A stretch of 64,000 nucleotides of DNA from positions 62,001 through 126,000 of the forward strand of contig NZ_CDCG01000016.1 in the NCBI RefSeq assembly GCF_000819845.1. The letters run 5' to 3'. The position numbers were made by a program, and so were the translations under genes. The notes beneath the pieces were generated by a model. That model searched no databases and was not told the origin of the DNA. It was given only the letters and a program-made list of their open reading frames with translations. Origin of the DNA: Aeromonas enteropelogenes (GTDB lineage Bacteria > Pseudomonadota > Gammaproteobacteria > Enterobacterales > Aeromonadaceae). Shown piece after piece: positions 3,727 to 9,206 of this stretch (the first letter of the stretch is position 1; the number at the start of each line of letters is the position of its first letter).

Positions 3727-5064
3727 TCAACTCGCCTCCAGCTCCTTGCGATAACTCTTCACCTGGGCCAGGAACTGACGGCGTTCCTTACCACTGAGCG
3801 CTTCGGCCATCGGCAACTTGGCTGTCATGGCATTGACCGGACGGTTGTTGATGCGCAGCTCGTAATGCAGGTGGGCACCGGTAGAGCGGCCGGTATTGCC
3901 CGACAGGCCAATCTTGTCGCCCATCTTCACCCGTTGGCCCGGCTTGACCAGCAGCTTGCTCAGGTGCAGATAGCGGGTCGCCAGGGTTCGTCCATGTTTG
4001 ATGACGATATAGGTGCCCGCCAACGGGTGACTGGTCGCCTTCTGGACGACGCCATCACCGGTTGCCAACACTGGCGTCCCTATCGGCAAAGCAAAGTCGG
4101 TGCCTTCATGGGGACGGATAGCCCCCGTCACAGGGTGTTTGCGCGCCGGGTTGAAGTTGGAGCTGATCCGGTAACGGCTGTGGGTGGGATAACGGCGGAA
4201 ACCGCGCTCCAGACTGTTACCCTCACCATCGTAATAGTTGCCATCTCCGGCAAGCCAGGCCGATACCGTCTTGCCCTGACTGGTCACTTCGACTCCCAGC
4301 AGCTGGCTGTTGCCCGTGCCCTTGCCTTCCACTGTTTCCTGACGCACCAGCACCTTGAATTTGTCGCCCTTTTTCAAGTCCTTGGCAAAGTTGAGCCGCC
4401 ATTGAAACAGGTTTGCGATCTTCTGGATGTGGTTGGCCGGAATGCCGGCATTACGGGCACTGACATAGAAGCTGCCGTTGATCACCCCGTTGTAACGCTG
4501 CGGCTGCCACTCCACCTTTTCGTTGAGCATGGAGGAGGTGTAGGCATCATCGCTGCGCGACATTACCAGTGTTTGCTTGATATTCAGACGGATCTTGAGT
4601 TGCTGCAGTATGTTGTCCTGATCGATCAGCAGCTCGATATTTTGCCCGGGTTTGAGACGAGCCAGATAGTTCTTGTTGTCAGCATCCAGCACCTTGTAAA
4701 GGGTGGTGGTAGAGAGTCCCAGATTGTTAAAGATCGCCGTCAGATTCTCGCCACTGCGGACCTGATAATCCTGCCACTGCGGGGTGGTATCGACCGGGAT
4801 GTCATCTTCGGGTGTGCTCGGCTCAACCAGCTCGTGATCCGGGATTTCGTTGAAATCGGTGTTGTTTTCGTTGGTTGCCGTACCGGCAGTATCAATTGGC
4901 AACTCAAGGCGCAATGGCCGTTCCAGGATATCGCCTGGTGCCGGGAGCAATGCGACGGCTGAAAGGGTCATGGCCGTCAGCATTACCATGGCATAAAAGT
5001 GTTTGCGGGGAACCGGTGGTTCCCAGTTGGCAGCCTGCGCGACCAAGGGACGGAGACGTTTCAT
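3727..5064 (-). CDS. mepM: Murein DD-endopeptidase MepM (M23 metallopeptidase)
   Basis: Cleaves D-Ala-mDAP cross-links to make room for peptidoglycan growth; acts in the periplasm, anchored by an N-terminal membrane helix (residues about 22-42). The 445-residue chain has a LysM/OapA-like region around 98-150 and a C-terminal LytM/M23 domain. The zinc ligands are present: H319 and D323 in HEGTDFA and H400 in HLHY. The start has AGGA 6 nt upstream. A 12-bp palindrome TTTAGATCTAAA (5078-5089) sits just upstream. In E. coli the orthologue adjoins znuA/znuCB; here the zinc genes are about 3 kb away, separated by the lap cluster. Confidence 0.93.
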   Translation of the reverse strand: MKRLRPLVAQAANWEPPVPRKHFYAMVMLTAMTLSAVALLPAPGDILERPLRLELPIDTAGTATNENNTDFNEIPDHELVEPSTPEDDIPVDTTPQWQDYQVRSGENLTAIFNNLGLSTTTLYKVLDADNKNYLARLKPGQNIELLIDQDNILQQLKIRLNIKQTLVMSRSDDAYTSSMLNEKVEWQPQRYNGVINGSFYVSARNAGIPANHIQKIANLFQWRLNFAKDLKKGDKFKVLVRQETVEGKGTGNSQLLGVEVTSQGKTVSAWLAGDGNYYDGEGNSLERGFRRYPTHSRYRISSNFNPARKHPVTGAIRPHEGTDFALPIGTPVLATGDGVVQKATSHPLAGTYIVIKHGRTLATRYLHLSKLLVKPGQRVKMGDKIGLSGNTGRSTGAHLHYELRINNRPVNAMTAKLPMAEALSGKERRQFLAQVKSYRKELEAS

Positions 5065-5324: not shown

Positions 5325-6623
5325 ATGTCGCTAGCCAAATTGTTAAACAGAATGATTTTCGTTCTGTTTCTAATCGGTGCCGTTCTGCTGCTTCTGCTTG
5401 AGATCACGACCGTCCGCCAATCCATCATCGACCAGATGTCGGCCAATCTGGAAACGGCGATTACCGCCCTGGGTCTGGTACTGCAGGGCACCCTGCTCAA
5501 CGATGACAAGGTACTGGCCGAAACCATCGTCAATGCCATGTTCGATGGCGGTTTTGTCAGCGCTGTGACCCTGGTTGATCCCGATGGCCAAATACTGCTC
5601 AACAAGGTATTTCAATCCTCCCAGCAGAATGTGCCGTCCTGGCTCCCTTCGGTCATTGACATGCCACCTGTCAGGAGCGAACAAGAGCTGACCGATGGTT
5701 GGCGCATACTGGGCACACTGACGCTGGAAGGACACAGTGGTTATGCCTATCAGCATCTGTGGAATGCCATCAGCCGCACCGGCTTTGCCTTGCTGGCAGG
5801 GCTGCTGGTTTTTACCTTGGCGATCTCCTGGGCCTGCAAGCGACTGCTGCAACCACTGACAGAGATCAACCTGCAACTTGGCCGGCTTCGCAAGCATCAG
5901 TACAACAACACCTTGTCCACCCCCTGGCTGCACGATCTCAGAGAAGTGACATCCTCCATCAATCAACTGATCTCGGAACGAAAACGGGATCTGCTGCAAC
6001 AACGCCTCAAGATCACCCAACTGGGTAAACAGCTTCCTATGACACCTCACGTTCCGTTGCATGGAATGGTTTCACAAGCTAGAGGAGGCTATCTGCAAAC
6101 ATTTTTCTCGACCCAGGGAGAGATCCCCCTCTATCAACGATTCCTGCCTGAGCAAACAGTGTCAGCCGACAGTGAGCTCTCAGTTATCGAAGCGGCCCTG
6201 GCGCCATGGCTACAACAAAACGTCGAGGGCATCTCTTTGCCGCTTTCCCTGCTCAACCACCCACAATGGCCGGAAATAGCCCCCTTGCTGACCCAGGGCC
6301 GTGGCAAGACACTGGATTGGCGCTGGGATCTCCCCGCCTTTCCGAATCAAGGGCAGTCCCTCCTGCTCTCACTGCAAGAGCAGGGGGTTGAACTCGCTTT
6401 CAGCGCCATTCCTCTCAATGCGGACACCCTCAATCAACTCGATCCTCTCAATCCCGTGTTTATCTGCTGCCAGATAACAGAGGCTCCTCTTTACTGGCAT
6501 CTGGTCTCGCAAACTATGCATGCAGCCGGTTACACCCTGTTGGCCGAGGCGGGCGAGCTGGCTAAAGTAGACAAGTTGCGCAGTTGGGGGATCGACGGAT
6601 ATGCCAGGGAGGTTCAATCATGA
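5325..6623 (+). CDS. LapD-like inner-membrane receptor lacking GGDEF, with degenerate EAL-like domain
   Basis: The N-terminal half matches LapD/MoxY-type receptors: TM1 about 10-28, a periplasmic module (29-150) with NAMFDGGFVSAVTLVDPDG, TM2 about 152-170, then a HAMP helix pair to about 222. Canonical LapD continues with GGDEF and EAL domains and, when bound to c-di-GMP, sequesters the protease LapG. Here no GGDEF is present. The last 180 residues look like an eroded EAL fold: GVELAFSAIPLNADTLNQL and AAGYTLLAEAGELAKVDKL align with the late EAL strands, but no EAL signature or metal ligands are seen. I chose ATG 5325 (GGAG 5 nt upstream) over GTG 5319. It overlaps the next gene by ATGA. Confidence 0.75.
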   Translation: MSLAKLLNRMIFVLFLIGAVLLLLLEITTVRQSIIDQMSANLETAITALGLVLQGTLLNDDKVLAETIVNAMFDGGFVSAVTLVDPDGQILLNKVFQSSQQNVPSWLPSVIDMPPVRSEQELTDGWRILGTLTLEGHSGYAYQHLWNAISRTGFALLAGLLVFTLAISWACKRLLQPLTEINLQLGRLRKHQYNNTLSTPWLHDLREVTSSINQLISERKRDLLQQRLKITQLGKQLPMTPHVPLHGMVSQARGGYLQTFFSTQGEIPLYQRFLPEQTVSADSELSVIEAALAPWLQQNVEGISLPLSLLNHPQWPEIAPLLTQGRGKTLDWRWDLPAFPNQGQSLLLSLQEQGVELAFSAIPLNADTLNQLDPLNPVFICCQITEAPLYWHLVSQTMHAAGYTLLAEAGELAKVDKLRSWGIDGYAREVQS

Positions 6624-7549
6624 GAAGGATAAGCCTATTATTGGCCCTGCTTTGGCAACCGGCTGCCACGGCAGCCTCCGTCACCATTGGCACCGGGGGT
6701 GAACAGGGGATATACCATCAAATCATGGGGGAATTTTGTCGCCTGGCTCCGCAGTTGAACTGCCAGTTGCAAGCCACCTCCGGCTCACTGGAGAACTTGC
6801 AGCGCCTGAAGAGCAGCGACGTCTCTTACGCCATGGTGCAGTCAGACTGGCTCTACCAGGCCAGCCAGGGCGCAGGCCCTTTCACCGGCAAGCCACAACC
6901 CGAGTTGCGAGCCTTGTTCGCCACTCATGCTGAGCCTTTTACCATAGTGATCCGCGCCGATGGTGATATCACCAAACTGGAGCAGCTCAAACTTGCCCCC
7001 ATCGACATGGGATTGAAAAACTCCGGTACCCGCCAAACCGCTCTGGCGCTGTTCAACCTGCTGGGAATAAAAGAGCAGGATCTCGACCTCAAGAGCATGG
7101 CGAACCTGCCCGAGTCCCTGTGCAGCAAACAGATAGATGCCTTCGCCGTCGTCATGGGCCATCCGAACCGCCATGTACTCAATGCCGCCAAACGCTGCGC
7201 CATTAGTTTCTTGCCGGTAGATGGTGAGCTCAGGGAACAACTGATCCAAGACGTCAAATACTACCAGCGCAGTCAAATACCAGCCCGCATCTATCCGGGC
7301 AATCTCAAGCCGACCCCGACCTTCGCCATCGCCGCCACTCTGGTCACCAATGCCACTATGCCGGAAGAGGCAGTTTACCAGCTGACCAAGGCCATGGTGG
7401 ACCAGCAAACCAAGTTCAATGAACAGACCTATGGCTATGCCAATATGTTTTATCGGGCCCGCAACAAGACGGGTCCTGTGCTGAGCATTGAACAACACCC
7501 CGGTGCGGCGCGTTATTTTGCCGAGTTGAAAGCGGCCGGGAAACTATAA
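6620..7549 (+). CDS. Orphan TAXI-family periplasmic binding protein
   Basis: A 309-residue exported protein with a signal peptide ending near residue 18 (PAATAA) and the TAXI-type TRAP solute-receptor core (VTIGTGGEQGIYHQIMG, ATSGSLENLQRL, AMVQSDWLY). Family members usually feed a TRAP permease, but no DctM-type permease is visible here. The start at 6620 overlaps the LapD-like stop by 4 bp, so the two should be co-translated. With LapG encoded convergently, a sensory rather than transport role is plausible, as for NspS with MbaA in Vibrio. That role is inference. The 3' end overlaps the lapG 3' end by 6 bp. Confidence 0.85.
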   Translation: MRRISLLLALLWQPAATAASVTIGTGGEQGIYHQIMGEFCRLAPQLNCQLQATSGSLENLQRLKSSDVSYAMVQSDWLYQASQGAGPFTGKPQPELRALFATHAEPFTIVIRADGDITKLEQLKLAPIDMGLKNSGTRQTALALFNLLGIKEQDLDLKSMANLPESLCSKQIDAFAVVMGHPNRHVLNAAKRCAISFLPVDGELREQLIQDVKYYQRSQIPARIYPGNLKPTPTFAIAATLVTNATMPEEAVYQLTKAMVDQQTKFNEQTYGYANMFYRARNKTGPVLSIEQHPGAARYFAELKAAGKL

Positions 7550-8218
7550 CTGACGGCGTGGCGTGCGCAGATGTTCGCTGGAGAAGCGGGTCTTCATGGC
7601 AGTCCACTGCGCCAGCCTGTCTGCGCTCCCCGCCAGGGTTCCCTCCCGACGGGACTTCATGATCCAGATGCTTTTGGCATCGAAGCTGTAGACGGGAATA
7701 AGATCGGTGCGCTTGCTGCCTGGCAGGATCCGGCTGTTGATATTGTCGAGCACTAACGGGTCTGATTTGGGGGTCGGAAAATAAAGCGTCACCATGTGAA
7801 ACTGGTTGTATCTCACCGCCTTGACGTAGGCCAACCGCAACTTCCCCTCCGCTACCCCCAGCTCCATGAGTGTGTAGTATTTGGAAATGCTGTAGTCCTC
7901 GCAGTCTCCACCGCGGGCGCCGATAAATTCCAGCGGATTGGCCCAGTAATCCTCCATCCCCCACAGCTTGGGATCATCGCTGTAGGTCAGATTGTTGAAG
8001 TAATTGTTCACCAGCTCGAGCTTTTGCTGATCCGTGGTGCCGGCCCGCGGCGCAAGCAGGCGGGAGAATGCCTCGGCCCGCTGGATCGCCCTGCCGCCAT
8101 ACACCTCCTGCAACTTGGCCTGCAATTCGGGGCTGGCGATATAGTCAGAGAGACGAGAGGCCTGCACATTGTTCCCCAAAAGGGCCAACGCGCAGGCAGG
8201 GACGAGCCACCATTTCAT
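7544..8218 (-). CDS. lapG: LapG-type periplasmic cysteine protease
   Basis: Bacterial transglutaminase-like cysteine proteinase. Family members cleave the N-terminal retention module of giant LapA-type adhesins and release biofilm cells; LapD controls them by binding. The 224-residue product has a signal peptide (to about residue 20) and the full catalytic triad: C106 in RGGDCEDYS, H141 in YNQFHMVTLYF and D158 in LDNIN. The start MKWWLVPA has GGAG 8 nt upstream. No LapA-like adhesin is in the window. The gene is 73 bp downstream of znuA on the same strand, with a possible TATACT -10 box in the gap, so it could be expressed alone or by znuA read-through. Confidence 0.9.
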   Translation of the reverse strand: MKWWLVPACALALLGNNVQASRLSDYIASPELQAKLQEVYGGRAIQRAEAFSRLLAPRAGTTDQQKLELVNNYFNNLTYSDDPKLWGMEDYWANPLEFIGARGGDCEDYSISKYYTLMELGVAEGKLRLAYVKAVRYNQFHMVTLYFPTPKSDPLVLDNINSRILPGSKRTDLIPVYSFDAKSIWIMKSRREGTLAGSADRLAQWTAMKTRFSSEHLRTPRRQL

Positions 8219-8291: not shown

Positions 8292-9206
8292 TTAACGGCA
8301 CTGGGCGAAGGCATCCGCCAATTGCTGCATGAACTGGGGATAGCCATCCGGACCGAGCGGCACCTGCTCACCCACTTCGTCCAGCAGCAATACCCTGGCC
8401 CCGGTATTGCGGGCTACCGACTCTATGACGGCGGGGGAAAACTGCGGCTCGGCATAGATGCAACTGGCCTGCTTCTCTTCCAGCGCCTTGCGGATCTCCA
8501 CCAGCGTTCTGGCTCCCGGGCGGCGTTCCGGACTCACGGTGAAGTGGCCCTTCGAACTCATGCCGTAATGGCGCTCCCAGTAGCCATAGGCTTCATGGAA
8601 CACGAAATATCCCTTCTGGTTCACCGCCTTCATCTGTTCAGCAATGATCTTGTCTTTGGCATCGACCTTGGCATCAAAGGCGGCGAGATTGGCCTCATAA
8701 CGAGACTTGTTGGCCGGATCCTGCTTGCCAAGCTCGACGGCGATGGCGCGAGCGATGACCTTGGCCTGGGTCGGTCCCAGCCAGAGGTGGGGATCGATGC
8801 CCTCGTGGTGATGTCCCTCATGGCCATCGTGGTCATGACCTTCATGTTCTTCATCTGCGTGCTCTTCATGCCCCTCCTGCCTGGCGTAGTCAAACAGCGG
8901 CATGCCCTCGACCTGTGTCAGGGTCAACACATGAGGATGGTTGGCCAGCGGTTTGGCCATGAAGCCTTCCAGTTCAGGACCGACCCACACCACCAGATCG
9001 GCGCCATTGATGCTGCGAATATCGGAAGGACGCAGGGAGAAATCATGAGGAGACGCGCCGGTTGGCAGCAAAACCTTGGGCTCGCTCACGCCGTCAGTGA
9101 TGGCGGCGGCGATAAAACCGAGGGGCTTGATGGTAGTCAGTACCTCGAGGGCACGAACGGGCAAACTCACTGCCAGCAGGGCAGTGATCAGGGCAAGAAT
9201 TCGCAT
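8292..9206 (-). CDS. znuA: Zinc ABC transporter, periplasmic binding protein ZnuA
   Basis: Captures Zn2+ in the periplasm and delivers it to ZnuB. The 304-residue protein has a signal peptide (to about residue 19), the cluster A-1 core GASPHDFSLRPSD, and a His/Asp/Glu-rich loop of roughly residues 110-137 typical of zinc-specific members, followed by DPHLWLGP. Later metal-site regions VFHEAYGYWE and SPERRPGAR are present. It is divergent from znuCB across a 95-bp spacer with two Zur-type boxes, so it should be induced by zinc starvation. lapG lies 73 bp downstream on the same strand. Confidence 0.96.
   Translation of the reverse strand: MRILALITALLAVSLPVRALEVLTTIKPLGFIAAAITDGVSEPKVLLPTGASPHDFSLRPSDIRSINGADLVVWVGPELEGFMAKPLANHPHVLTLTQVEGMPLFDYARQEGHEEHADEEHEGHDHDGHEGHHHEGIDPHLWLGPTQAKVIARAIAVELGKQDPANKSRYEANLAAFDAKVDAKDKIIAEQMKAVNQKGYFVFHEAYGYWERHYGMSSKGHFTVSPERRPGARTLVEIRKALEEKQASCIYAEPQFSPAVIESVARNTGARVLLLDEVGEQVPLGPDGYPQFMQQLADAFAQCR

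Follow-up and report, generated by a model that had tools for sequence, protein, structure and literature searches.

LapD-LapG is the textbook case of an inside-out hold by cyclic di-GMP (c-di-GMP) on an adhesin protease. The protease, LapG, cleaves adhesins at AAG-type sites. LapD bound to c-di-GMP grips LapG via the GW loop of its periplasmic dimer (PMC4359373, PMC3032553). We describe a relative of this system in a window of 64,000 nucleotides from Aeromonas enteropelogenes (the whole stretch analyzed; contig NZ_CDCG01000016.1, positions 62,001 to 126,000), which encodes a LapD-like receptor, a TAXI solute-binding protein and a LapG-type protease, LapG2. In NspS-MbaA of Vibrio cholerae, as would be the case for this module, a periplasmic binding protein drives a membrane receptor (PMC11575326). 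MbaA has c-di-GMP enzyme activity, whereas the output of the module would be control of a periplasmic protease, with c-di-GMP seemingly uninvolved. The receptor domain and the binding-protein family of NspS-MbaA also differ from those of the module. DvhD-DvhG of Desulfovibrio vulgaris is similar in placing a LapG-type protease under a membrane receptor of another architecture; DvhD combines dCache with a c-di-GMP-binding HD-GYP domain, and the portion of the report drawn on here mentions no separate binding protein (PMC13090378). Among TAXI proteins, VcGluP (with VcGluQM) and BP0403 (with GltS) share their sequence family and pocket residues with the TAXI protein of the window, and BP0403-GltS offers a precedent for a TAXI protein that serves a partner outside the tripartite ATP-independent periplasmic (TRAP) transporters through overlapping genes (PMC12344293). 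The partner of these TAXI proteins is a transporter, whereas the partner of the TAXI proteins linked to lapD-like genes is a LapD-type receptor, and the linked proteins additionally carry group-specific residues. We found no description of a TAXI-linked LapD/LapG module in the open-licence literature searched, subscription papers lying outside that scope.

In the window, the receptor gene and the TAXI gene follow one another on the forward strand and lapG is convergent with them:

5325..6623, + strand: LapD-like receptor gene without GGDEF, 432 aa
5400..5768, + strand: periplasmic LapD/MoxY (LapG-docking) domain, residues 26-148
5697..5702, + strand: Gly125-Trp126, the LapG-docking GW motif (GWRI in the window receptor; GWxQ in most canonical LapDs)
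5769..5999, + strand: second membrane helix and HAMP-like linker, residues 149-225 (model helices 138-189 and 199-235)
6078..6617, + strand: reduced EAL-fold domain, residues 252-431, conserved EAL residues not retained
6620..6623, + strand: ATGA overlap of receptor stop and TAXI start, read from the sequence
6620..7549, + strand: orphan TAXI solute-binding protein, 309 aa, TIGR02122
7544..8218, - strand: LapG-type periplasmic cysteine protease (LapG2), 224 aa, triad C106, H141, D158, PF06035
7544..7549, no strand: tail-to-tail overlap of TAXI and lapG, 6 nt; equal end-to-end distance from the coordinates of the best 30 loci
3727-5064, - strand: mepM-like flanking gene
8292-9206, - strand: znuA flanking gene

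Relative to LapD-LapG as known from Pseudomonas fluorescens and from Legionella (CdgS9), the receptor has no GGDEF domain and its EAL domain is either absent or shrunken and stripped of the conserved residues; a TAXI gene is coupled to the receptor gene, and lapG is convergent instead of lying just upstream of lapD. We propose, at a probability of about 55%, that the locus represents a paralogous, self-contained LapD-LapG adhesin-release switch, with its input shifted from the cytoplasm to the periplasm. This proposal builds on what comparison of sequences and structures establishes: homology, conservation, translational coupling of the TAXI gene to the receptor gene, joint presence and absence of the genes, and a receptor without a cytoplasmic domain in one lineage. 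The gene-level content had been recognized in an earlier reading of the letters alone (hereafter the original prediction), and its receptor without GGDEF, ATGA overlap to TAXI and convergent lapG with a full triad were all confirmed.

The periplasmic end of the receptor is that of a LapD. Residues 26-148 match the Pfam domain LapD_MoxY_N at 114.6 bits, and the NCBIfam LapD alignment spans residues 3-223, which identifies the first 223 residues as LapD, although the whole protein misses the NF045673 equivalog cut-off (87 versus 1020 bits). The docking Trp of the GW loop is invariant (33 of 33). In 12 of 12 linked LapDs, I or M stands in place of the Gln of the GWxQ motif, and this Gln is also missing from 6 of 24 other LapDs, so that we discarded this change as a weak mark of a private LapD-LapG pair. 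The cytoplasmic end is different. Pfam finds no GGDEF domain in the window receptor, whereas it does in the canonical paralogue. Pfam likewise reports no HAMP domain; the HAMP named in the original prediction corresponds to a second helix and HAMP-like linker. That prediction had also named an eroded EAL-like domain (residues 230-432), a description that holds: none of 20 homologues matches EAL by sequence profile, and the structure model confidently retains the EAL fold in the cytoplasmic domain. In an alignment of remote sequences, two residues invariant across 19 canonical LapD EAL domains, Lys and Asp, correspond to Cys and Gln in the window receptor. With no GGDEF, the conserved EAL residues gone and the cytoplasmic domain absent in a related lineage, the c-di-GMP input of the receptor looks lost, as judged from sequence.

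Alternatively, the remodeled EAL domain could bind c-di-GMP or another nucleotide through new residues, which would make the receptor an inside-out LapD of the ordinary kind, its sensor divergent and the TAXI protein acting as a modulator. The confident fold would suit this idea, as would the purifying selection on the domain (ratio of nonsynonymous to synonymous substitution, dN/dS, 0.22). However, the replacement of the invariant Lys and Asp by Cys and Gln, the lack of GGDEF and the absence of the whole domain from a distant lineage make it distinctly unlikely.

That lineage came to light in a sample of 394 genomes drawn evenly from the order (E<=1e-30; the results hold among the matches listed), in which at least three genomes of a distant genus show LapD matches whose open frames measure just 184-192 aa. 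In three of four genomes of this genus, the short LapD consists of a first membrane helix, LapD_MoxY_N (87-89 bits), a second helix and a stop, for a total of 179-180 aa. In two of these genomes the TAXI start shares one base with the short-LapD stop, and in the third it follows that stop after two bases; in two short-LapD genomes lapG is convergent and adjoins TAXI. The LapG of the short-LapD genomes belongs to the same clade as the linked LapGs, and all four genomes covered from that family also encode a full-length LapD. An even sample of 369 genomes from the class (E<=1e-20) yielded no further module members. Several short LapD frames were set aside: one in the class sample runs off a contig end (G648) and another is frame-broken (G784), as is one in the order sample (G239), while a further order-sample frame lies near a contig end (G180). 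A lone truncated LapD in the class sample (G670, from another family; L179:2231-2893, 220 aa) was also rejected, having no lapG or TAXI gene within the 6 kb read; its neighbors appear by eye to be cation efflux and cytochrome c maturation genes.

Closer to the window, most Aeromonas carry the module. Within a family sample of 75 genomes, 37 of them Aeromonas, the LapD-like protein is present in 35 of the 37 Aeromonas genomes; the partner LapG (77-91% identity) and TAXI (49-83%) occur in the same 35 (identities apart from the own genome), and all three genes are jointly absent from G009 and G029. A further genus of the family has the triad in the same layout in two of three genomes (G061 and G063); in G063, TAXI and lapG are about 650 bases apart. 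The original prediction had coupled TAXI to the receptor and suggested a survey of gene order in relatives, and the survey upholds the coupling: the pair is kept together, with order and strands of all three genes identical, in the best 30 of 30 loci, the window's own included, and the order is kept in 26 of 28 of an overlapping set (the window and 27 named Aeromonas loci). The two exceptions are a contig end in A. piscicola and A. cavernicola, in which the lapD-TAXI pair (38% and 48% identity to that of the window) stays together on a different contig from lapG, which (87% identity) still lies beside a znuA-like gene. Beside the displaced A. cavernicola pair, in divergent orientation, lies a second TAXI gene of the non-linked kind (L050:455-3640). 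Viral contigs yielded no relative.

The three proteins also form groups of their own. Twelve TAXI-linked LapDs group apart from 24 other LapDs (99 in the Shimodaira-Hasegawa-like approximate likelihood ratio test, SH-aLRT), and 12 linked LapGs group apart from 24 other LapGs (SH-aLRT 100), joined by an unlinked third LapG of A. sobria. These LapD and LapG trees are quick and midpoint-rooted, with several long branches flagged and rows hand-chosen to span lineages, and the positions that separate linked from other copies number only two for LapD and four for LapG. Twelve LapD-linked TAXIs separate from six other TAXIs, all of them from Aeromonas, with support of 100/99. At 13 positions, the linked TAXIs are near-invariant (11-12 of 12) for a residue never found in the six others, and these positions are candidates for a docking surface or for a shifted ligand preference. 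Gln34, Glu38, Ala101-Ala104, Arg223, Tyr273, Asn275 and Phe277 are among the group-specific residues. Taken together, we consider it very probable that a distinct TAXI-linked LapD/LapG subfamily exists. The third lapG of A. sobria (G028, L128:4114-6679) is 64-66% identical to the window LapG2 and lies directly downstream of a gene for a membrane protein with an intact EAL domain (by eye), with a transposase-like gene (by eye) nearby; it is perhaps a mobile LapG paired with a phosphodiesterase.

Selection is distributed unevenly along the receptor. We estimated dN/dS for both LapDs in one shared set of 22 Aeromonas genomes; of the 24 for which canonical LapD was retrieved, A. cavernicola with its divergent copy and A. 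piscicola with its broken copy were left out. Canonical LapD has a median of 0.03-0.06 in every part (55-139 usable pairs), including 0.047 for its periplasmic domain. The LapD-like protein has a median of 0.061 in its periplasmic domain, and the rest of the protein reaches 0.20 in the first membrane helix, 0.20 in the second helix and linker, and 0.22 in the EAL remnant (167-225 usable pairs across these parts). Mean amino-acid divergence, which is independent of synonymous saturation, gives the same pattern, with LapD-like versus canonical values of 0.094 versus 0.098 in the periplasmic domain and 0.344 versus 0.144 in the EAL part. The contrast in dN/dS indicates that the periplasmic end is the part under tightest control, and transmission of a signal through the membrane seems less demanding in the LapD-like protein than in LapD. 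TAXI and LapG2 have dN/dS values of 0.114 and 0.091, respectively (25 loci).

These values bear on whether the locus is simply a decaying, functionless duplicate of lapD-lapG. Such decay could account for the relaxed constraint on part of the receptor, for the absence of the module from two of 37 genomes, and for two damaged copies: the lapD-like gene of A. molluscorum contains an in-frame stop and that of A. piscicola is broken at contig ends. However, because purifying selection acts strongly on the periplasmic domain, TAXI and LapG2 (0.061, 0.114 and 0.091), and with the module kept in 35 of 37 genomes, we reject decay as the principal explanation and regard it as very improbable indeed. 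Of the damaged copies, that of A. molluscorum (G019, L058:1613-2941) has its TAG in the periplasmic domain while the adjoining TAXI and lapG are open, and that of A. piscicola (G020) lies in two pieces at contig ends.

We also considered whether the TAXI protein belongs to a transporter. The window TAXI matches TIGR02122 at 216 bits (cut-off 84), and its closest solved structures are TAXI proteins, the best being 8s4j (E 2.4e-47), which, judged from its length and residue spacing against PMC11574862, appears to be VcGluP, the glutamate-specific TAXI of V. cholerae. Tyr45 and Gln93 are key to the VcGluP pocket (PMC11574862). Equivalents of Tyr45, Gln93, His123 and Glu125 and both disulfide pairs are present in 25 of 25 Aeromonas loci, that of Ser75 is present in 24 of 25, and the first four residues are retained in 12 of 12 linked TAXIs across lineages. 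Because the pocket residues of VcGluP are mostly retained, the ligand could be glutamate or a relative. We saw no TRAP permease adjoining the window TAXI, whose neighbors are the LapD-like gene and lapG. The genome encodes one TAXI-type fused permease over the cut-off, on another contig beside another TAXI gene, and two weaker matches elsewhere fall below the cut-off. These findings agree with the description of this TAXI as an orphan. A second orphan TAXI of the same genome (contig C13, L047:6827-8110) has a tail of ~120 residues rich in Pro, Ala and Thr, its Pfam match stopping at 305 of 428, with no permease adjoining within the stretch read; similar TAXI matches within long open frames of about 430-740 aa turn up again in many Aeromonas genomes.

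The fused permease leaves room for an account in which the LapD-like protein is a constitutive tether or buffer for LapG2, set by its expression level, and TAXI is a passenger for uptake, for example as an extra binding protein of a TRAP permease encoded elsewhere. The relaxed membrane and cytoplasmic parts would also suit a receptor that has ceased to signal through the membrane. However, TAXI accompanies the LapD-like gene in the members examined and is missing where that gene is missing, the linked TAXI groups away from the permease-partnered TAXI, and G063 (94% complete) has the triad with no match to a fused TAXI-type permease. We therefore hold this account to be unlikely, if still a contender.

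LapG2 has the domain and triad of a LapG-type protease. It matches PF06035 (Peptidase_C93) at 50 bits (cut-off 27), its solved relatives are 4fgo (E 2e-46) and 4u65, and its C-H-D triad is invariant in 25 of 25 loci, although it misses the NF045674 equivalog cut-off of NCBIfam (191 versus 320 bits). On another contig, the same genome encodes the canonical set comprising lapG, lapD (642-aa frame) and an adhesin gene, with a TolC-like gene upstream; the two LapG copies are 48% identical, and the two LapD copies are 32% identical over residues 25-215. The original prediction had named a complete GGDEF-EAL LapD paired with the window lapG as the finding to look for against it. The genome does encode a complete GGDEF-EAL LapD, yet its partners are an adhesin and a different lapG, 48% identical to that of the window, which matches the named finding only by half. 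A canonical LapD of this kind occurs in the same genus genomes as the module, except for G030, which is 80% complete. The LapD-like protein could pair with canonical LapD through EAL-EAL or HAMP contacts and follow its state, which would place LapG2 under indirect control by c-di-GMP. This co-occurrence and the retained EAL fold would favor such pairing, as would the action of LapD through dimerized EAL domains (PMC3032553). However, it is in the HAMP and cytoplasmic parts that constraint is relaxed, and three genomes lack these parts; we give indirect control only a small chance.

Among the neighbors read at the window locus, we saw no adhesin or type I secretion gene. The genome encodes three retention_LapA adhesins, each with at least two AAG motifs near its N-terminus, which are candidate, predicted substrates. 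A scan for promoters and terminators returned no promoter-like sites (1.8 expected) and five terminator-like sites (3.6 expected).

Based on these results, we propose the following mechanism for a switch with periplasmic input. The LapD-like dimer would keep LapG2 at the inner membrane in the manner of the solved LapD-LapG complex. TAXI, either open or closed around its ligand (glutamate or an amino acid related to it being most likely), would dock on the periplasmic domain and change the grip of the receptor on LapG2. Freed LapG2 would cut at least one LapA-type adhesin encoded elsewhere in the genome, and attachment would respond to an extracellular solute without c-di-GMP. We infer the holding of LapG2, the TAXI contact, the ligand, the direction of the response and the adhesin target, and it is most economical to suppose that the holding is unchanged and that TAXI supplies what the EAL domain once supplied. 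The furthest-reaching version, which falls slightly short of even odds, is adhesin control confined to the periplasm and gated by ligand: TAXI with glutamate or a similar amino acid would set a LapD-derived docking platform to hold or release a dedicated LapG with no second messenger, and the c-di-GMP sensor would have been lost stepwise, from full LapD through the shrunken EAL domain of Aeromonas to no cytoplasmic domain.

Several observations weigh against this mechanism. The EAL remnant of Aeromonas, confidently folded and still under purifying selection, probably has some role. The distances of the LapD periplasmic domain and TAXI correlate (partial r 0.41), and so do those of other pairs at the locus, up to 0.58 for the EAL remnant and LapG2, and those of pairs with canonical LapD (0.20-0.39). 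Because other pairs correlate as strongly, the correlation is no evidence for contact; an earlier version with two control genes had ranked the TAXI-LapD pair highest (partial r 0.68-0.70), and we discarded it because the signal is unspecific once canonical LapD serves as the control. Retention modules of the LapA type number one to four matches in each of the 37 genus genomes, including the two without the module, and no adhesin among these genomes tracks the module by presence or absence. With regard to the ligand, the equivalents of Tyr200 and Met201 are substituted in the linked TAXIs relative to the V. cholerae glutamate binder; Tyr200 of VcGluP makes a negligible contribution and occurs in 20% of TAXIs (PMC11574862). 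One of the 13 group-specific TAXI residues, His103, is the equivalent of His123 and is shared by 8s4j. In the distant genus, one of four members (G129) has no short LapD, and in G148 (L160:2743-6809) lapG is separated from the TAXI/short-LapD pair by two other genes, which indicates that the three genes are not bound to be neighbors; rarer layouts may also be missing at the level of the order, where the survey holds among the matches listed. The unspecific distance correlation, the conserved EAL remnant and the lack of an adhesin that tracks the module keep our confidence in the mechanism near one half. The ligand-gated reading of the original prediction is accordingly supported in part: the c-di-GMP input looks lost, TAXI is coupled to the receptor and no TRAP permease was seen next to it, whereas the coevolution test proved unspecific.

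Because every part is small and the receptor of one lineage comprises 180 residues with no cytoplasmic domain, a clear test of gating is possible. If gating were shown, this would be, to our knowledge, the first ligand-gated, messenger-free form of LapD-LapG. It would mean that the output domain of LapD can be driven from outside, with the periplasmic half kept, the sensor half worn or dropped, and a binding protein gained. Attachment would moreover be tied directly to a nutrient in an aquatic genus that is widespread and has pathogens of fish and humans among its members. Most Aeromonas species and a few relatives carry this second copy of the adhesin-release switch, through which attachment may answer to a nutrient outside the cell.

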